DNA from: a virus | Direction: 5' to 3' (one strand) | Virus record (IMG/VR): IMGVR_UViG_3300021373_002443 | Coordinates: 1 to 23,403 of that record | Length of the DNA: 23,403 bases | Shown: positions 4,620 through 23,403 of the stretch, piece after piece | How positions within the stretch are numbered: the first letter of the stretch is position 1 | Layout of the letters: each line of letters starts with the position of its first letter | Position numbers and translations under genes: made by a program | The notes under the pieces: generated by a model | Told to the model about the DNA's origin: nothing | Database searches by the model: none | The model's input: the letters and a program-made list of their open reading frames with translations, nothing else

Positions 4620-5678
4620 TTACTCGCCTTTGAACATCGACTTATAAGTGGCTGGCTTGAGCCATATGTCTCTATTCATAAATTTTTCTAATACGTCCTT
4701 TGGTAGGTTTTCTCCAGTAGCTTTTCTATAACCTCTTGTTCCAGGCGTAGAATTAATTTCAATAAATGTTGGAGGAATTTTATTTCTATCTTTCGAAGGA
4801 AATATATCTACGCCTACCCATAAGCCGTCAACAGCCTTTGCTGCTTTTTCTACATGCTCTATTTCTAAATCAGTTAATTCTATTGGAGCTGGCTTTGAGC
4901 CTAATGATACGTTAGTTCTAAAATCCTTTTTAACTGTTGGTCTTTTAATCGCTCCATGGAATTTACCTCCAATAACGTGTGCTCTAATATCAAAGGTAAA
5001 ATCTTTAATCATACTTTGTAATAGGATACCCATATTTGGATCCAGCTTATGCAGTAGCTGAACCGTAGAGTGTAACGAGCTCTCTGAATCTATTTTAATT
5101 ACACCAATACCGAGTGAACCTGTAAGAGTCTTAAGTATGATTGGATATTTATCACCTAATCTTTCCATTGCGTCAATGGCTTTTTCTTGATGGTGGACTA
5201 ATACTGTTTTAGGCTGTTGCAATTCTGCTTCTGCAAGATATAGACTTGTTCTATATTTATCTGATGTGATTTCCATACAAGAGCGAGTGTTAACGCATAC
5301 TACGCCTGCTCGTTCTAGTTGTGTTAAGAAGTCTGACCAAGCCTTTCTTTTTGTAACCGGAGCTCGTACGAATACGAGAGTATTATCGTCAATTTTAAAT
5401 TTGCGTTCTTTTTCGGCCATTCCATCGTAAATGTATCTTACGTCATTTTCTAAATCGGAATAGGCGCCTTGGACATCAACTTTAAATCCAGTAAGACCTA
5501 GCTTTTTACCTTCTTCAATAAAGTCGTCAGCGGTCTTTTCTGGATCATCAGGGTCTTCAGGATCGTCATACCACAGATATACAAACTTATATTTTTTAGT
5601 TTCTTCTTCTAAAACGTGCTCATGCTGTTCTTTAGCATGACGTCTTTCGATTATTTTTTTTACTAGTTGTCTTTTCAT
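4620..5678 (-). CDS. RimK-like ATP-grasp ligase inserted between gp17 and gp18
   Basis: This looks like an ATP-grasp enzyme of the RimK/glutathione-synthetase type, which joins a carboxylate to an amine through an acylphosphate. Visible features (numbered from the ATG at 5678) are the glycine-rich ATP loop ILKTLTGSLGIGVIKI (about 181-196), DIRAHVIGGK (230-239), WVGVDIF (287-293) and the Mg-binding FIEINSTPGTRG (305-316, with the E-x-N pair). The substrate cannot be read from sequence. Candidates are amino-acid or peptide addition to a ribosomal or virion protein. A longer reading from ATG 5708 is possible, but the ATG at 5678 overlaps the gp17 stop as ATGA and has GGAAGG upstream, so I prefer it (352 aa). 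It has its own late promoter inside gp17. T4 has no such gene here. Confidence 0.85.
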   Translation of the reverse strand: MKRQLVKKIIERRHAKEQHEHVLEEETKKYKFVYLWYDDPEDPDDPEKTADDFIEEGKKLGLTGFKVDVQGAYSDLENDVRYIYDGMAEKERKFKIDDNTLVFVRAPVTKRKAWSDFLTQLERAGVVCVNTRSCMEITSDKYRTSLYLAEAELQQPKTVLVHHQEKAIDAMERLGDKYPIILKTLTGSLGIGVIKIDSESSLHSTVQLLHKLDPNMGILLQSMIKDFTFDIRAHVIGGKFHGAIKRPTVKKDFRTNVSLGSKPAPIELTDLEIEHVEKAAKAVDGLWVGVDIFPSKDRNKIPPTFIEINSTPGTRGYRKATGENLPKDVLEKFMNRDIWLKPATYKSMFKGE

Positions 5679-7282
5679 TTGAAGCCCTTCCACTCCTTTT
5701 CGAACCATATGTTACCGTCGTCTCCTTTCTCACCACTATTTATATGGTTTTGACCATTATCTATATAGCCAAAAGGCAACATATCGTCTTGAATCTCTGC
5801 TAATCTTTCCTTGTATAGCAGATTCTTTACGTCTATATTTGTTAAATTTTCAAATACATCAGTGGAAGTAAACCAACCAAATAGAACTAAATTCATCATT
5901 AGATCATCGTGATTGGGCGCAACTGCTTGATACGAATTACCTTTAGAAACAAATGTCGACATTTCAACAATCGTATCTGAATCGTATATGACCAATTTCT
6001 TTTGCTCAATTAAATCTTTTATTGTAGAGCACCCAATTCGTTTTACTCTTCTTGTCATTGTAACGCCGATAGCATTACTCTTAATTGAAGATTCTACAAA
6101 AATGTTTTCGTATTCTAAATCGTAATATAATCCATTACAAACTACAGCCCCTTGATCATTACTCTCTACAAGCACATAAGCTTCGTTATATGTTTTGGCA
6201 TACTTGTAAATGATATCTGGAAATAGCATAGGCGATAGCTTATTATCTCTGAATACGCATACTTGCTCAAAGGGCTGGGCCGATACGTCTATAACATTAA
6301 ATGTAGAATAGTCTTGCCCTCGTCCTTTAGCAACATCAACACAAATTACATATTCGTGGCCTTCTTGTGGCTCTTTGTAGATGGAGATATTTTCCTTATG
6401 GTACTTTGGATCTACTGCCTGTTGCGCCAATAAATGATTAGCATCAATGAGCGTATTACCTCGACCATGGAATGTATTACCAAACTCCTGATCAAACTGT
6501 AAGGCAGAAGTATTAGCAATGGTTTGTTCTTTCCATTTCTCATCTCGCCCTGGAACGTCCCACCAATCTACTCTGAATGGCTTAAATTCGTTTGTGCCCT
6601 GACTTGCACCTTCCCACAATTTATGGTATACGTTACCGATGCCATTAGCTGTAGAGGTAATAATAATTTTTGTTTCTTTACCAGAAGATACTACTGGGTA
6701 TGTTGATGTATAAAACTGTGCATCATTCTCAATGAATGCAAACTCATCGAGAAACAATAAGTTAATTGATAAACCACGAATAGAACTACCAGACGTTGCT
6801 GCAGCAATAATCTTTGAATTATTACTAAACTCAATTGATCCTTTATTTAATGCCTTACAGCCAGGTTGTAAAAAGAATGGCAGGTTTTCTAACATTAGCG
6901 TTACACGAGCTAACATTTCTCTCGCCGTAGCACCTTTGTTTGCCAAAATAGCAATAGTCTTCTCAGGGTGGAAACACGCATACCAAAGTAAATACGCTAC
7001 AGATGAAATAGATTTACCAGATTGTCGACATGCTAGTACGATAGAGAATCTATTCTGATTAAAATGATTAAACATATTTTCTTGGTATGGATATAAATCG
7101 AACGGAACTAATCCACTATCAAGCGATATTACCTTAAGATATGTACGCGCAAAATATGCAGGATCTTGCATACATTTAGCGTATTCTAAAACTTCAGGTT
7201 TTGTAAATTCGGTTTCTACTCCGTCGCGCTTTACTGACGGATTTCCTAGATAACCAAACTCATTATTCTTGATCTTCTGCAT
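5675..7282 (-). CDS. 17: Terminase large subunit gp17 (packaging ATPase and nuclease)
   Basis: This 535-residue motor docks on the portal, pumps DNA into the prohead and cuts concatemers. The ATPase domain has Walker A ACRQSGKS (84-91), Walker B INLLFLDEFAF (173-183, with D179 and catalytic E180) and coupling motif ITSTANG (208-214). The RNase-H-like nuclease domain has VDVAKGRGQDYST (315-327, metal-binding D316), LVESNDQG (371-378) and HDDLMMNL (458-465), giving the expected acidic triad. T4 gp17 is 610 aa, so the ends are shorter here. It overlaps gp16 by 20 bases, as terminase genes do in T4. The last ~70 bases contain a late promoter for the next gene, and its TGA overlaps that gene's ATG. 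Confidence 0.97.
   Translation of the reverse strand: MQKIKNNEFGYLGNPSVKRDGVETEFTKPEVLEYAKCMQDPAYFARTYLKVISLDSGLVPFDLYPYQENMFNHFNQNRFSIVLACRQSGKSISSVAYLLWYACFHPEKTIAILANKGATAREMLARVTLMLENLPFFLQPGCKALNKGSIEFSNNSKIIAAATSGSSIRGLSINLLFLDEFAFIENDAQFYTSTYPVVSSGKETKIIITSTANGIGNVYHKLWEGASQGTNEFKPFRVDWWDVPGRDEKWKEQTIANTSALQFDQEFGNTFHGRGNTLIDANHLLAQQAVDPKYHKENISIYKEPQEGHEYVICVDVAKGRGQDYSTFNVIDVSAQPFEQVCVFRDNKLSPMLFPDIIYKYAKTYNEAYVLVESNDQGAVVCNGLYYDLEYENIFVESSIKSNAIGVTMTRRVKRIGCSTIKDLIEQKKLVIYDSDTIVEMSTFVSKGNSYQAVAPNHDDLMMNLVLFGWFTSTDVFENLTNIDVKNLLYKERLAEIQDDMLPFGYIDNGQNHINSGEKGDDGNIWFEKEWKGFK
5737..5744 (-). promoter_or_regulatory. T4-type late promoter inside the gp17 3' end, driving the ATP-grasp gene
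   Basis: An exact TATAAATA lies on the coding strand within the HINSG codons of gp17. The predicted start near 5731 is about 53 nt upstream of the preferred ATP-grasp start (5678), or about 23 nt upstream of the alternative (5708). Its position just ahead of a gene start makes it credible despite being inside coding sequence. Confidence 0.65.
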
Positions 7283-7698: not shown

Positions 7699-8904
7699 TT
7701 AGTAGCCTCCACCGCTTGTGCCACCTGTATTGCTTGCAGTATTATCAGTGCCGTCAGTGCTATCTATTACTGTAGTCGCACCAGAGGTAGAAGTATTTGT
7801 TTGATTCGCATTATCAGCTACTGCGGCCGTAGTAGTTATTTCTTCTAATATTGCAGCAGTGTTTGGATCAACATCAAATCTTGCTACATTGTCAGTTACT
7901 ATTATCTGGCCACGCATAGCTGCATGTGATGTGCATTGATAATAATAAAGGCCTTTGTTAGTAAATGTAAATGATGTAGCTTCATTAAGCTCACTGGCCA
8001 AAATGTCGCCACTAGAATTTTCAATTTGTAATGGGTGCAATGGCGCTAGTTCATTAATAATTGTTATACTATCGCCTGTGTAAATATTAATTGTGGGATC
8101 ATTTACTTGTGATATAGATCCACTTCTGTCTAAACTGCTACTATTAAATATATAATCTTCATCATTAGCGTCAATTATGGAATAATTATATGTTTTAGGG
8201 TTAAGTATAGAAGTTCCATTAGCAATAGCGTCAGCGACAGCATCTTCGAATTGTCTAAGATCTACAACATCGACATCAACTTCCCTAATAATTGGCTTAT
8301 CGCCTGTAGGGCCATAAAACTTCATTTTCATTGTAAAATCCAATTGATATATAAGAACTCTACGCGATGTATAATCACCTTCGTAGCTATCGTCAATATT
8401 AACGCTATTTAAAATAACTGGAACATCTTGAGTAAATGCAAAATTATCAACAGGCTTTATTGATACAGTATAGTCTGGTGTAAAATATGGAAGAATTTGT
8501 TCTACTATTTGTAGGCCGTCGTCTTGGCTTTTTGCCATAATATATAACGACATTCCGATATCATATGAGGTATAATTATTAATTGCCTTTCTTTTAGTAG
8601 TATCACTACCGTGATCTTCTATTATTCTATTTAATTTATTTAATTTTTGATTAGCATCAACTGCTAAAGATGTAATTTCAAAGCCCATTCTCGGAAGCTT
8701 TAAAGCCACAGATTGTTTATACCCTGATTCTTGATCTAATCTAGAAAGAAACTTTTCCTTAGGACCGTAGGATAATGGAACTTTAATTTGATTGAGAACT
8801 CCACCATCTGCTGCTTTACGAATGACATTAATATTGTTAAATAGCGTACCAAAAACGGCCACTGATTTACGCATTGTCGCATGGTAAAAATGTCCACCAA
8901 ACAT
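7699..8904 (-). CDS. 15: Tail sheath stabiliser/tail completion protein gp15 with C-terminal cupredoxin-like domain
   Basis: Residues 1 to about 235 are gp15, the hexameric terminator that caps the tail and joins it to the neck. MFGGHFYHATMRKSVAVFGT, LFNNINVIR, VPLSYGPKEKFLSRL and LPRMGFEITSL are diagnostic. T4 gp15 is 272 aa, and this protein is 401 aa. The extra part, about 240-338, resembles a cupredoxin: TINIYTGDSITIIN, then LAPLHPLQIENSSG, then FTFTNKGLYYYQCTSHAAMRG. It carries a full type-1 copper ligand set (H290, C324, H327, M330) with the C-x2-H-x2-M spacing of amicyanin-type proteins. Residues 340-401 are a low-complexity Thr/Ser/Gly/Asn tail. Copper binding is inferred, not shown. 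The start overlaps the gp14 stop as TAATG. Confidence 0.92.
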   Translation of the reverse strand: MFGGHFYHATMRKSVAVFGTLFNNINVIRKAADGGVLNQIKVPLSYGPKEKFLSRLDQESGYKQSVALKLPRMGFEITSLAVDANQKLNKLNRIIEDHGSDTTKRKAINNYTSYDIGMSLYIMAKSQDDGLQIVEQILPYFTPDYTVSIKPVDNFAFTQDVPVILNSVNIDDSYEGDYTSRRVLIYQLDFTMKMKFYGPTGDKPIIREVDVDVVDLRQFEDAVADAIANGTSILNPKTYNYSIIDANDEDYIFNSSSLDRSGSISQVNDPTINIYTGDSITIINELAPLHPLQIENSSGDILASELNEATSFTFTNKGLYYYQCTSHAAMRGQIIVTDNVARFDVDPNTAAILEEITTTAAVADNANQTNTSTSGATTVIDSTDGTDNTASNTGGTSGGGY

Positions 8905-9845
8905 TAGAAGTTCTCCGAAGGATCACCAAATGGATTGGTTTCCGTAAAGTCTAAGAAATTGTCAGTAAATGTTTCAAATGCTACATTTTGTGCAGCCGAA
9001 TCATTTGCCATAAAGTTATCAGTATCGTCGTCGCCTACGTCATATACGCGAGTGATATAGCACGTATTAGCAGATTCTGAACCAACCAAACCATTGGTTG
9101 TAGAAGCTATGAATTGTCTATAGTCACTAGCACCAGTTACACCAATATTAGAAACTCCAATTTTAGCAAGTGTGTCCGAAGTTTTATCGAGTGTCTGCAC
9201 TGTACCATATATCTGTACTGCTGGAGTAGTATCTGTTGCAGCAACTAGGGTTTGTGTTACGGTTTCACCTCGTACAAAATGATTGCCATTTGTAACATCT
9301 AATTGTATACCAGCTAAATATGCTTCGCCACCTATTTCATCATCAATAGCATCAATACCAGTATCAAAGTCTTCGTCATTATATTCAAACAATGCGCACG
9401 TGAGTTTATATACGGGTAAGTTAGATAACTGATAAAACGGCTTATCGTCTTCAACAAATGTAATTTCAAAAAACGAGTTAGTCATTGGAAGGAATAATAG
9501 ATCACCTTCTCGAGGTTTATCTAATCCTTCATATGAACCAATTTGATGATTCCAAGTTTTTCGTGATATTACAAACGAAGCTTCATCTCTTATTTCAAGA
9601 CCAAACTTCTGATAAAGATCACCAGCTCCTTCAAATCCATCTACATTTTCAATATATGCTTCTGTTAAATAAGCATCGTCAAAGTTAGAAGTTGGATCTT
9701 CGTTTAGAATATTATCCCTATTAACAAGACTGCGGGGGATATAATAGACATCTTGTCCAAATATCTTAAGTGATTCAATTACCAAGTCTTCATACAGATT
9801 TTGTTCTGACCGAACGGCTTGGGAAAAGTATACGTTTCTAGGCAT
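8904..9845 (-). CDS. 14: Neck protein gp14 with an inserted beta-rich module
   Basis: This neck (head-completion) protein joins filled heads to tails together with gp13. The N-terminus MPRNVYFSQAVRSEQNLYED, LKIFGQDVYYIPR (27-39) and PREGDLLFLPMTNSFFEI (111-128), plus the C-terminal DNFLDFTETNPFGDP (295-309), are typical. At 313 aa it is longer than T4 gp14 (256 aa). The excess fits an insertion at about 180-270 (NGNHFVRGETVTQTL onwards) before the conserved C-terminal tail. The insert resembles a segment of the neighbouring gp13. AGGATAAT precedes the ATG, and gp13 ends 3 bases upstream. Confidence 0.93.
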   Translation of the reverse strand: MPRNVYFSQAVRSEQNLYEDLVIESLKIFGQDVYYIPRSLVNRDNILNEDPTSNFDDAYLTEAYIENVDGFEGAGDLYQKFGLEIRDEASFVISRKTWNHQIGSYEGLDKPREGDLLFLPMTNSFFEITFVEDDKPFYQLSNLPVYKLTCALFEYNDEDFDTGIDAIDDEIGGEAYLAGIQLDVTNGNHFVRGETVTQTLVAATDTTPAVQIYGTVQTLDKTSDTLAKIGVSNIGVTGASDYRQFIASTTNGLVGSESANTCYITRVYDVGDDDTDNFMANDSAAQNVAFETFTDNFLDFTETNPFGDPSENF

Positions 9846-9848
9846 TTA

Positions 9849-11114
9849 TTATCCTACGTAGAAGTCGACTGGCTGCTCCCAGTTTAATCTAACTTCTTCT
9901 TCAAGTCTTTGTAATTCTTCAACGGCATCATCAAACAATTGGCGACCATTGAAAGTAACCCCGCCAGGCATTTGCATTCCTTCAAATTTAAGTAAGTTAG
10001 CACCCCATTGTTTCTTAATGAGTGCCGTAGCATATTTCTTTAAGAAATAATCGTTATATACATCAGTGAATGTAGATGGATCAATAATTCGATATCCTTC
10101 AACTACAATATAAGCACCAATTTGAACTTCGTTTTTCCAATCCATATCGATTCTCAAACGATCTCTATGGCGATCAAATGAGACAAATTTATCGTCTGAA
10201 TCAATAAGAACGTCTAGTGTGGACAAATATTGTTTAGCCATTGTATACTCTAATAGACTACCCATATAGCCAAGACTATACATATCGTTTAGATGCATTT
10301 GGTATTTTACATCGAAAAGGCTTGTGCTTGAGCTATGATCTCTAATTGGAAGAACTCTAATAACATCTGTTACCAAATCGGGTATGTTAATATACCCATA
10401 GTCAATTGCACCAATAGTCACTGATGAAATAGTACTAGTGGCCTTAGATGTTGTTCCTATAATTTCATTTGTCGCAATAAAGGCATTTTTATCAATAGGG
10501 TCATAATTATTGATTGATAATACGTTTTTGGTTTTAGATACTACAGTGGCAATAGCTTCTTCTTCAGCAGCATTAACCAATGTAGCCGTAGCATTTCCTA
10601 TTGTACCTGCAGTTGTAACTAATGCTGTATCATTTACTTCAGTTAACGTAAACCCAGTTACATTTGGAGCCGTTCCGACAATTGCACTTACTTTATATTC
10701 GGCAGCATCTGAATTATATCCAGTAATAGACCCTACACCGTCGGCAGTTCCAAACAAGTCTGATATAGTAATTCTATCGCCTACAGCAATATCTGCAGCA
10801 TCACACGTAAAGTTTCCAGCAACATCAGTAATAGCCACAGTTGTTAAAACGGTGCTATTGCTAAGTGTAATTGTTTCACCGACTGTAAAGGCCGCGGCCT
10901 CAGCTTCGGTTGGAAGTACTAGTTTGGTATAGTCAATTTTTTCCTTAAGGAATACTTTTTCAATGGCATCAGTATGATAGTGCTGATAGAATTGTAGAGC
11001 TTCGTCTATTCTATCATCTAACTGATCGTCGTCAACATTAATTTCAATTACTGGTGCACCTAGATTTCTAAGGCAGTAATCAATTAATGTTTCTCTGCTG
11101 TTTGGTTTAGCCAT
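9849..11114 (-). CDS. 13: Neck protein gp13 with a large inserted domain
   Basis: This is the head-completion connector that binds the portal after packaging. The N-terminal part (LIDYCLRNLGAPVIEINVDD, then DRIDEALQFYQHYH, residues 10-47) and the C-terminal part (YINIPDLVTDVIRVLPI at 241-257, LFDVKYQMHLNDMYS, the motif DWKNEVQIGAYIVVEGYR and IKKQWGANLLKFEGMQMPGG) are classic gp13. Between them, at about 64-238, lies an Ala/Thr/Val-rich insertion with repeated 'GE-T/I-T ... V' motifs. This explains the 421-aa length against 309 in T4. Two late promoters precede the gene, with AAGAGGTG as ribosome-binding site. It heads the gp13-gp17 transcription unit. Confidence 0.94.
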   Translation of the reverse strand: MAKPNSRETLIDYCLRNLGAPVIEINVDDDQLDDRIDEALQFYQHYHTDAIEKVFLKEKIDYTKLVLPTEAEAAAFTVGETITLSNSTVLTTVAITDVAGNFTCDAADIAVGDRITISDLFGTADGVGSITGYNSDAAEYKVSAIVGTAPNVTGFTLTEVNDTALVTTAGTIGNATATLVNAAEEEAIATVVSKTKNVLSINNYDPIDKNAFIATNEIIGTTSKATSTISSVTIGAIDYGYINIPDLVTDVIRVLPIRDHSSSTSLFDVKYQMHLNDMYSLGYMGSLLEYTMAKQYLSTLDVLIDSDDKFVSFDRHRDRLRIDMDWKNEVQIGAYIVVEGYRIIDPSTFTDVYNDYFLKKYATALIKKQWGANLLKFEGMQMPGGVTFNGRQLFDDAVEELQRLEEEVRLNWEQPVDFYVG

Positions 11115-19486: not shown

Positions 19487-22400
19487 CTATTTAGTATTAT
19501 TTATATTCTTTAATTCTTCAATAGCTGCTTTCAATTGGCTATTTTCTTCTTTAAGCTCTTTAATCGCTTCGATAAAGAGAGCCGATAGTTGGTTATAATC
19601 TACTACTTTGTGAGAATCTTCTCCGTTAAGATCTTCTGTGTCGCTAACAGCTGATGGTAATACTTCTTCAACGTTTTGTGCAATAACACCAGCTGAAGCT
19701 TTACCATCTTTTTTCCAATTGAATGTTACCCCATCTAATTGAGATACTAACTCTAGCGCACCTTCTACTTTTTCTATATTGTCTTTTAACTTTTTATCAG
19801 AAGATGTTGTGGTAGAGTATGCAATAATATTACCGTCAGCGTGGAAGTTACCATTAGACATAAAGGCAAATTCTCTCTGGCCAGCAAAGTGAATCCCCGC
19901 AGCTGCGGTTGAATCAAATAGCATGTAATTATCATTGTTATAACCAAATGCCGTAACGCTTCCACTAAGATCTTCCAATACATTAAATTGAACGGCAATA
20001 TTGTTGCTTCGAAGACTTACACCGTTTCCAGAGAAAAATCTCACAGAACTGCTTTTACCCTGTGCCTGCACCGCATTGAAACCGTCCGTTAATGCGTCCA
20101 TCGTTCCTGGTTGAGTCGTAGAACTTTCGTCATACACGTTTATATTACTATAAGCATTTTGGTTTTCTTCTGCAGTAGTACTAATTGTCAGTCTACTATT
20201 ACTTCCCGCGCCACTCGATGGTCTAGTAACAGTAATTGTACCATCTCCAATTAAATATATGTCTTGTTGGTCAGTACTATCTGCTGCGTTAGTAAGCACA
20301 ATATACTGGCCATTGCTGTCGTGAGTAATAGTTGTGTTGAGGGCCAAGGTATACTCAGTGTCAGCCGAAGATGTACCTGCACCAATTAATGTTCTTACGT
20401 CTTCAGCTGTAATGTCGGTATTGAATGTAGGAGTACCGTCAGTCCCTAGTATCGCTGGAACACCAGTATCTGAGGTAATAGCGTTAACTGAGTCTTCAAG
20501 TGCTGATATATCTACACCATCAACCGTTGCATTAGCTTGATGCAATGTAATATTTCCATCATCTGTAAACGTAACTAGCTCAGAGGTATCCGATAATGTA
20601 TTATAGAACGTATGATTACCTAAGGAAAAGTATCTACTAGCATTCGCATGCATTTGAATACCACTTAATATTCTACCGGTCGACGCGGCGCTGTCACTGG
20701 TATTAGGCTCATCCGTAGCTGCAACTAGATACATACCATTGTAATCATACAGAACCTGCGCAGAATCACCTGTATGCTGTTTTTCAATAAAGTATATACC
20801 ACTTTCAGTGCTATTATACTGAATAGGTGGAGTAGAGTTAGGAACAATATGACCCACTGAAGCGGAAATTTCAGCTTCACTTAATGCGCTATTGCCTTCA
20901 GTATCGAGATTCGGCCCTGCTGCAGTATTAATTGAAGCCTGAACGGGTATCGCCGCGGCCGATATTCCAGTTAAATGGCCATTATCGTCAATTGTAAGAT
21001 TCTGAATAAAGTTACTGCCGGCATTTGTCGATGTTCCAGCGCTAAGAGTAGATGTATTAGCATGATTAATCGTAATTGATGCTGGCGCTTCTGATCCTTG
21101 AGTTGTTACTTCTGCGGCTGCAGTTAAATCTATACTAGTACCACCTATAAACTTAATTGTACTATCATTAGAACTAGCATCAAGTTCAGTGGTATCAGAC
21201 ATTACAGTTTTAAATATATTTTGTGTCGAGCCTTTATCATCATTTGTTACGGCTATAGCTACGTTAATAGGATTAGTTAATCCGCTGGTCCCGTCGCCAG
21301 AAAGGTTAACATTAACTGTCGCTCCGTCAGAATTTGTAGCGTCCCCTTTAAACCTTATGTTATTAGCAGTGGGCAAAACATCTACAGTAGTCGTGCTACC
21401 GCTACTAGGATCATCGAATAATGAAAGTTCTCGTATATAACGAGCATCAAAATTGTAAGTTTCATATCCGCTAATATGCCCTTGGTCTAGTGTTAACGAA
21501 ACCACACTAGTTCCATTGGTTGGGGTTGCGGTCGATTCAGTACCAGCAAACGCTTTATGTTCAATATAAACTTCCCTATAAGCACTGTTTAAACTTAATT
21601 CAATTATTCCGTTATCATTAATTTGCTGATCACCCGCACCCTCACTAGTTTCAGGGACATAGCTTCCTTCTTTAAAATATACACTGGACGAGTTAGTGAC
21701 CGGCGCCAATGTCGACGCATTTACTCCTAATAACCAAGAATCAAAATCATCAGCTTCAGTAATGATATTTGAATATGTAGCATTCTGATTTACAATGTCA
21801 TCAGCATAGGGATTTAAAACCTGCCATCTATTGGTTGCTTCACTAAATACTAGCTCTGCGTTCTGCAATGAGCCGCGATTTACATTTATACCAGCATAAG
21901 TAAATGCTGGAGTAGCATTACTTGCAAGATCAGAGTTAAGCAAAATGGTATTATCACCAATATTAACTTCATTCGATGTAACAACATTAAAGTCATCATT
22001 AACAGTTAAGCTGCCTCTAACTATTAGATCTTTACCGATAATACCACCGCCAGCAGTTTTAAATGATGCTGTAGAGATCTCATCGGGCTGGTCTTCGTTT
22101 GTAATTGACGCGTCCGCATCACCTTGAATATCAAGCGAAGTGGTAATTTGTACGTTGTCAGCTAAACCAACGGTAGCGGATGAGCCTTCACTCGCAGTAT
22201 GCGAAACTGTAATCTCATTAGAAGTACCAGATATTCCAGACATATAGTTACCGGTGGTATCAGTACCAAGGGCTACGCTATTTGGTTGTATTGTGGTTGA
22301 AATGGACACATTTCCAAGATCAGTCATTGTCGCCGAACCAGTAACATCTCCACTTAGAGTAATAGTTGGATCATTTACGTTAAAGGTAAACTGCTTATTA

Positions 22401-23403
22401 GTATTATCCCATCCAACTGATATACCGCTTTCAGTGCTAGATTCAACTAGATGTTTAGCATTATCGAAAGTGACGATGGGAGTAGTAGCTTTAGTCCATA
22501 CGGTACCATCAGCATTTGGATCCATGTAAGACACTTCCCACGCTCTATCATAATCACTTAGTTGAGAAGGATAATTCGCCCCATCAGTTAAAGCATTCTC
22601 ACGGTATAATAATTCTACATCAGAAGCACCTGCAACCGCGCCATTTGTTTCCCCAGCTTCGTTTTCATCAAAAATTCCACCATTTATATTGATTAAGCCT
22701 CGATCAATAGAAATACCTTCACCTGACGCGACATTACCAGCTAATTTTACAAATGAAGTTTCAAACGAAACTTCGGTGCCGCCACCGCCAAGCAACAAAT
22801 TACCATCTCTAATATCTAGCGTTGAGCCAGTTGGATATGTAACAGTGTTACCGCTTGTAAACGTTAGATCTTGATTAATCGTCTGGCCGCCGTTAGATGT
22901 TATTGTTCTAAGCACGGTATCATCTACAGTAAGAGCACCTGATCCACTACTTAATTGATAAGTAGCAGATAGATTAGTTAAAATTAATCCATTAGCTAAT
23001 GCCTCCCCAGCTACAGCATTACGACCGGATAATGTAAATCCTATCTGTGGTAGAATATTAGTATCAGGAATTGTTAATTCTAAAGAAAAGGTCTGATCAG
23101 ATGTACTAGAAGTTCCAACTATGGTTACTTCGTCTTGAGCTCCAAGACTATAGTCACTATTTAAATATTTTATAAATGCTACTAAAGTATATCTACCATC
23201 TAAGTTATTGCTGGCGTGTGGAATAGTACCACTAAAGTAAACAGTCTTACCTCTTAAATTGGTATCTTGAATGAAGGTACTTGTTTCTAAGAATACGCCA
23301 CCGTCAGTAGAATCATTTGGATCTAAACGGTTTAATGGATTTCCACCCCAAGGCGTGGCATTATCAGTTCCAGCAGCAATGGCGGTATTAGGTGATCTTG
23401 TAA
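19487..23403 (-). CDS. Very large tail fibre with C-terminal S74 intramolecular chaperone (5' end beyond right edge)
   Basis: The reading frame is open to the right edge, so at least 1304 residues are encoded and the true start is outside. A GTG at 22915 is internal. Visible residues about 25-145 look like a beta jelly-roll (GKTVYFSGTI, YTLVAFIKYL, FSLELTIP, GFTLSGRNA), possibly carbohydrate-binding. The long Thr/Ser/Asp-rich shaft contains two related modules ('GISIDRGLI ... DRAWEVS' and 'AGINVNRGSL ... TNRWQV'). The last 104 residues (SDKKLKDNIEKVEGALELV onwards, with FNWKKDGKASAGVIAQNVEE) are the S74 endosialidase-type chaperone, which trimerises the fibre and then cuts itself off at the Ser of SDKK. 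A C-terminal coiled coil follows (IKELKEENSQLKAAIEELKN). Confidence 0.92.
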   Translation of the reverse strand, partial: TRSPNTAIAAGTDNATPWGGNPLNRLDPNDSTDGGVFLETSTFIQDTNLRGKTVYFSGTIPHASNNLDGRYTLVAFIKYLNSDYSLGAQDEVTIVGTSSTSDQTFSLELTIPDTNILPQIGFTLSGRNAVAGEALANGLILTNLSATYQLSSGSGALTVDDTVLRTITSNGGQTINQDLTFTSGNTVTYPTGSTLDIRDGNLLLGGGGTEVSFETSFVKLAGNVASGEGISIDRGLININGGIFDENEAGETNGAVAGASDVELLYRENALTDGANYPSQLSDYDRAWEVSYMDPNADGTVWTKATTPIVTFDNAKHLVESSTESGISVGWDNTNKQFTFNVNDPTITLSGDVTGSATMTDLGNVSISTTIQPNSVALGTDTTGNYMSGISGTSNEITVSHTASEGSSATVGLADNVQITTSLDIQGDADASITNEDQPDEISTASFKTAGGGIIGKDLIVRGSLTVNDDFNVVTSNEVNIGDNTILLNSDLASNATPAFTYAGINVNRGSLQNAELVFSEATNRWQVLNPYADDIVNQNATYSNIITEADDFDSWLLGVNASTLAPVTNSSSVYFKEGSYVPETSEGAGDQQINDNGIIELSLNSAYREVYIEHKAFAGTESTATPTNGTSVVSLTLDQGHISGYETYNFDARYIRELSLFDDPSSGSTTTVDVLPTANNIRFKGDATNSDGATVNVNLSGDGTSGLTNPINVAIAVTNDDKGSTQNIFKTVMSDTTELDASSNDSTIKFIGGTSIDLTAAAEVTTQGSEAPASITINHANTSTLSAGTSTNAGSNFIQNLTIDDNGHLTGISAAAIPVQASINTAAGPNLDTEGNSALSEAEISASVGHIVPNSTPPIQYNSTESGIYFIEKQHTGDSAQVLYDYNGMYLVAATDEPNTSDSAASTGRILSGIQMHANASRYFSLGNHTFYNTLSDTSELVTFTDDGNITLHQANATVDGVDISALEDSVNAITSDTGVPAILGTDGTPTFNTDITAEDVRTLIGAGTSSADTEYTLALNTTITHDSNGQYIVLTNAADSTDQQDIYLIGDGTITVTRPSSGAGSNSRLTISTTAEENQNAYSNINVYDESSTTQPGTMDALTDGFNAVQAQGKSSSVRFFSGNGVSLRSNNIAVQFNVLEDLSGSVTAFGYNNDNYMLFDSTAAAGIHFAGQREFAFMSNGNFHADGNIIAYSTTTSSDKKLKDNIEKVEGALELVSQLDGVTFNWKKDGKASAGVIAQNVEEVLPSAVSDTEDLNGEDSHKVVDYNQLSALFIEAIKELKEENSQLKAAIEELKNINNTK
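19498..19505 (-). promoter_or_regulatory. T4-type late promoter in the last codons of the large fibre gene
   Basis: An exact TATAAATA on the coding strand overlaps the final codons (NINNTK) of the large fibre. The predicted start near 19492 gives a leader of about 15 nt before the 113-aa gene, which ends in AGGATAAGTAGATG. Confidence 0.75.

Follow-up and report, generated by a model that had tools for sequence, protein, structure and literature searches.

A predicted type-1 copper domain of the cupredoxin superfamily on the neck protein gp15 of a marine T4-like phage

The gp15 gene of a virus contig (IMG/VR record IMGVR_UViG_3300021373_002443; the window, i.e. the whole stretch of 23,403 nt analysed) encodes a tail terminator/sheath stabiliser with a long C-terminal extension, which raises the question of what this protein carries at the neck of the virion and whether it might hold copper there. 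The gene (7699–8904, on the minus strand like every window feature located below) encodes 401 aa and was identified by its ORF and by matches to PF16724 (E = 2.2e-66) and phrog_227 (E = 1.8e-74). Over the gp15 body (residues 5–219; 8248–8892), both profile and fold agree with T4 gp15, which was the top fold match (9mkb/4huh). The gene has the T4-type position between gp14 and the terminase genes, within the order gp13, gp14, gp15, gp16, gp17, an ATP-grasp gene, gp18, tube and portal (tube and portal named by position and size). Given this gene order and a terminase that matches Phage C48C1 best (71%), the window belongs among the marine T4-like phages (Kyanoviridae).

T4 gp15 has 272 aa (PDB 3j2m), leaving 129 extra residues in the window protein. 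This agrees with the approximately 130 estimated in the initial annotation, which had read 7891–8187 (residues 240–338) as a cupredoxin-like domain with a full type-1 copper ligand set, followed by a low-complexity tail. After the body come a linker helix (residues 216–228; 8221–8259), which follows a low-confidence stretch (207–214) in the full-length AlphaFold model, the cupredoxin domain (residues ∼237–339; 7888–8196) and the low-complexity tail (residues 345–401; 7702–7872), which is predicted to be mostly disordered (pLDDT <50 over 350–401). The residues proposed as ligands are where they had been placed: His290, the first predicted copper ligand, lies in APLHPLQI, with its codon and that of the family-typical Pro291 at 8032–8037, and Cys324, His327 and Met330 form a Cys-x2-His-x2-Met loop with amicyanin spacing in YYYQCTSHAAMRG (7915–7935).

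Other genes of the window also carry additions. The gp14 (head closure) gene (8904–9845; PF11649, phrog_460) has no cupredoxin and runs well beyond its PF11649 match; in the relatives L071, L397 and L179, gp14 is itself a cupredoxin carrier. The window gp13 (9849–11114) has 421 aa compared with 240–326 in most relatives, with a big added segment at ∼65–230. Neck proteins in these phages acquire a variety of added domains. A RimK-like ATP-grasp ligase gene (4620–5708; PF08443, E = 3.4e-29) is located between the genes for the terminase and the sheath, and a virion protein might be the target of this ligase for amino-acid modification. A fibre-like protein of 1142 aa (19487–22915) ends in a Peptidase_S74 chaperone domain.

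Profile, alignment and structure all point to a cupredoxin. PF00127 (Copper-bind) matched residues 308–336 of the whole gp15 with 21.4 bits (curated cut-off 21.2) and the isolated domain with 24.2 bits, and 57 of 98 relatives matched it at E 0.01. When window gp15 was compared with PDB sequences using phmmer, amicyanin (E = 1.3e-5) ranked after T4 gp15, and H290, C324, H327 and M330 aligned in the same order with amicyanin H53, C92, H95 and M98 (numbering counted off the printed alignment). The window domain also matched the gp9 family phrog_677 (E = 2.9e-11), and every PDB protein recovered with a profile of the 98 related phage domains was a copper protein (a nitrite reductase, amicyanin or plastocyanin). 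AlphaFold predicted residues 230–345 with confidence (pLDDT 93.4, pTM 0.86) as an all-beta, Greek-key sandwich, and among the PDB fold matches listed, 50/50 were copper proteins of the cupredoxin superfamily. In the domain model, the first His (61) sits just ahead of strand 63–67 and the Cys-His-Met loop (95–101) lies between the final two core strands, placements that agree with the ligands being within bonding distance. The full-length gp15 model (mean pLDDT 73.2, pTM 0.48) is confident over the domain, less so overall and weak at the joint (∼207–214), and its fold matches were first the T4 gp15 structures 9mkb and 4huh, then cupredoxins. Together, these results bear out the proposed cupredoxin-like domain, and the extension almost certainly has this fold. 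By sequence and model, it is likely a type-1 (blue) copper domain with an amicyanin-spaced loop, and we expect with good confidence that it binds metal.

The initial annotation had named absence of the ligand set from homologues as evidence against copper; the full set proved to be conserved, in favour of a metal site. A search with the pattern [YL]YY[QY]C[TKA][SNH]H gave 74 confirmed loci. The first His and the Met, neither tested by the pattern, were kept in 70/70 full copies from these loci, although copies with both residues are more likely to be confirmed, as confirmation relied on similarity to the query. The iterated profile pulled in some Ig-like domains with a gap at a ligand column (rows FCE-, FCD-, FCN- and YCD-), and these were excluded from the ligand counts. 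Among 59 full copies outside both search patterns, three equatorial ligands were present in 44, two in 1, one in 11 and none in 3. When each column was shuffled (5000 trials), 32 copies were intact on average and never more than 38, compared with the 44 observed; this is not a strict probability because some copies are close relatives. The three equatorial ligands are therefore retained or lost jointly in these pattern-independent copies. At the axial position, 37 of the 44 intact copies have Met, 6 have Gln and 1 has Glu, and His occupies this position in one copy, L077. Gln is the natural axial alternative to Met in stellacyanin-type sites. Ligands kept as a set, together with an axial Met, Gln or Glu, are the pattern that a working type-1 site predicts. 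A Pro followed the first His in 214 of the 232 copies with intact equatorial ligands, at the position of Pro291 in the window and of Asn in amicyanin; this residue is a mark of the family and could alter the metal site.

The domain is also under purifying selection. Compared with the gp15 of L003, the body had a dN/dS of 0.06 and the domain one of 0.26; compared with L004, the values were 0.08 and 0.17, with synonymous sites nearly saturated. Both ligand loops are almost unchanged, whereas the remainder of the domain is divergent.

How gp15 came to carry this domain can be read from its relatives. We collected 130 unique gp15 ORFs, of which 79 had no extension, 38 had a cupredoxin match (a share inflated by targeted searches) and 7 had another extension. 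Among 54 deduplicated gp14/gp15 pairs from loci retrieved using window gp15 as the query (window included), the domain was on gp15 in seven and on gp14 in three; domain-bearing gp15s are a minority. In the gp15 tree, where subtypes were labelled by locus (window, L003 and L004 versus the rest) once the sequences had been read, the window groups with L003 and L004 (SH-aLRT 98), and this clade is nested within gp15s that lack the domain. Since close gp15 relatives lack it, a single gain is the simplest history for the window's clade, and the alternative that the domain is native to this gp15 family was rejected because most close relatives do not have it. The remaining cupredoxin-bearing gp15s require five changes by parsimony, two of them forced by starred branches. 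A second cupredoxin subtype occurs on gp15 in other marine phages. Apart from those of L003 and L004, the domain sequences closest to that of the window belong to large virion-like proteins and not to this second subtype, so the two subtypes were probably gained separately.

The same module has settled on other parts of the virion. It lies inside the chain of 10 unique gp14 ORFs (PF11649 verified for three); in two of these (L071:1727–2998 and L397:1347–2615), the insert has H, C, H and M, and the L071 copy has an amicyanin-like Asn after the first His. A gp13 (L248:2328–3428) contains an insert at 166–277 with GHPLNI and CPNHANM; by position, this locus had been taken for a gp14 fusion, as had L128 and L231, which turned out to be other structural proteins. 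In 112 deduplicated gp14/gp15 pairs, the domain was on gp15 only in 33, on gp14 only in 10, on neither in 69 and on both in 0, and no contig among those compared had two cupredoxin-bearing neck proteins (gp13, gp14, gp15). Mutual exclusion of the gp14 and gp15 domains is suggestive (Fisher P = 0.03, uncorrected for kinship or targeted searches). Cultured phages carry the family in gp9 and fibres, including the gp9 of the isolated cyanophage S-SSM5. The family is virus-enriched and is often seen in the tail fibres and gp9 of marine phages, and pattern, PHROG and fold matches upheld the earlier impression that virion proteins of other marine phages contain motifs like YYQCTSH. The domain is a mobile module, gained within domain-lacking gp15 lineages and present also on gp13, gp14, gp9 and tail fibres.

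Two ORFs of 3274 and 3079 aa (L178:691–10512 and L267:3–9239) each have six matches to the cupredoxin profile. In some of these copies the ligands have been lost together, which indicates that the fold is usable without metal. In the phage collection, no cultured phage was found to have a cupredoxin on gp15; the gp15s of Mosig EXVC030M and P-HM2 were considered and rejected, having longer C-termini that are not cupredoxins. The extension of the Pelagibacter phage Mosig gp15 (L279:6001–7599; 532 aa) looks LamG/lectin-like by eye and has no Pfam match. A narrow scan of bacterial and archaeal genomes (A1) found no good cellular source for a recent capture: 1 of 34 pattern matches was confirmed, L416 (MAG MED685), a contig that is perhaps viral and was binned with the MAG.

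On balance, we favour the explanation that gp15 gained a type-1 copper domain which becomes copper-loaded after lysis and acts as an accessory surface module. T4 gp15 is a hexameric ring at the top of the tail (PMC3004832). The hexamer caps the tail beneath gp14, whose arm is contacted by gp15 residues 203–245, and also makes contact with the fibritin collar. As T4 gp15 forms a hexamer, up to six copies of the domain could surround the neck. The extension, following residue 220, would emerge from the ring close to where gp14 is contacted, plausibly pointing outward, and each virion would display up to six domains round the neck on flexible joints. Window gp15 has a normal gp15 N-terminus without an added export signal. 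Free copper is minimal in the cytoplasm, where virions assemble, and before lysis the domain is therefore probably in the apo form. Copper would be taken from the lysate or seawater once the cell lyses, and its presence in the mature virion seems to us somewhat favoured. The loaded knob may then aid contact of the virion with host surfaces, or help it to stay near them, as a non-essential copper analogue of iron-loaded tail fibres. Because the domain is carried by diverse virion parts and is missing in close relatives, an accessory role at the surface is favoured over a neck-specific step. A role in host contact, drawn from analogy and from the places where the domain occurs, is our tentative first choice. 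It is rather doubtful that the idea extends to many marine T4-like virions carrying copper (on neck gp13/gp14/gp15, gp9 and fibres), loading it post-lysis and using it to reach or bind hosts, with phages as a seawater pool of strong copper ligands.

The main rival to a host-contact role is that the fold alone matters, the beta-sandwich being an Ig-like knob on the surface for glycans or cell walls, with the ligands persisting by inheritance or packing. The presence of the domain on many different virion parts, the ligand loss in some copies of the giant proteins and the uptake of other domains by the gp15 C-terminus (that of Mosig and another in P-HM2) would all fit. However, the ligands are retained or lost as a set, axial variation is restricted to residues known from copper sites plus the one His in L077, and the ligand loops have changed least; we consider this reading unlikely. 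A protective role is improbable: Cu(I)/Cu(II) cycling would quench superoxide, or toxic copper would be sequestered, shielding the particle in sunlit surface water. The redox activity of type-1 sites is established and the phages are marine, judging by contig sources and relatives, but six sites per virion offer small capacity, and type-1 sites catalyse poorly without an electron partner, none of which is encoded in the window. We give still less weight to a non-copper metal, e.g. zinc, acting as a structural cross-link of the domain. Cupredoxins made in the cytoplasm can bind zinc and virions assemble there, yet two His with Cys/Met favours copper, and the axial Met, present in 37/44 unselected intact copies, would not be kept at a zinc site. 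Finally, H...C-x2-H-x2-M as a chance motif in an extension that ends in a low-complexity tail can be dismissed, given the significant E-values in Pfam, PDB and PHROGs, the confident fold and purifying selection.

Cupredoxins, gp15 and phage plastocyanin genes were known already. The new element is a conserved and complete type-1 site, predicted from sequence and structural modelling, within virion neck proteins; no description of copper domains built into phage particles was found in the literature searched, which was open access and left most subscription journals outside. Copper binding would mean that abundant ocean viruses bear a redox metal on their surface. Isolated cyanophages with the gp9 domain (e.g. 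S-SSM5) make the copper question directly testable.

Among known systems, amicyanin (PF00127; PDB 1aac, 1sf3) is the best cupredoxin sequence match in the PDB, with the Cys-x2-His-x2-Met loop in common and all four ligands aligned. However, amicyanin is a free periplasmic electron carrier, exported to serve methylamine dehydrogenase, whereas the gp15 domain is fused to a virion protein without an export signal and no such partner is encoded in the window. The first His and the Cys are 34 residues apart in gp15 (His290–Cys324) and 39 in amicyanin, and Pro291 replaces the amicyanin Asn. The gp15 domain is therefore a cupredoxin, but not an amicyanin. The cyanophage gp9 C-terminal domain (phrog_677) is of the same family, with 98/98 profile members matching phrog_677, as are the cupredoxin-like cyanophage fibre domains (phrog_9158, phrog_27200 and phrog_15006). 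Their folds match that of the gp15 domain (TM 0.7–0.78), and His-Pro and C-x2-H-x2-M are shared; these domains sit on baseplate and fibres, without copper-binding annotation, whereas the carrier in the window is the neck protein gp15. Cyanophage PetE plastocyanin (phrog_515) is a phage-encoded cupredoxin with a weak match (E = 1.7e-5), but it is a free-standing auxiliary photosynthesis gene and not part of the virion (PMC2984593). T4 gp15 (PF16724; PDB 4hud, 9mkb) matches the fold of the body at residues 5–219 (TMt 0.59–0.69) and has no cupredoxin domain. The closest published idea is that of the iron-loaded fibre: iron is held by HxH in the tail fibres of T4 (gp37) and Alteromonas phage R22Y, and metal-decoy attachment has been proposed (PMC11705849). 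As proposed for the gp15 domain, metal-binding residues lie within tail parts of marine phages, but these fibres are trimeric and bind iron, and neither fold nor metal is related. If the gp15 domain binds copper, this metal would join the idea of phages as metal ligands and metal-loaded decoys.
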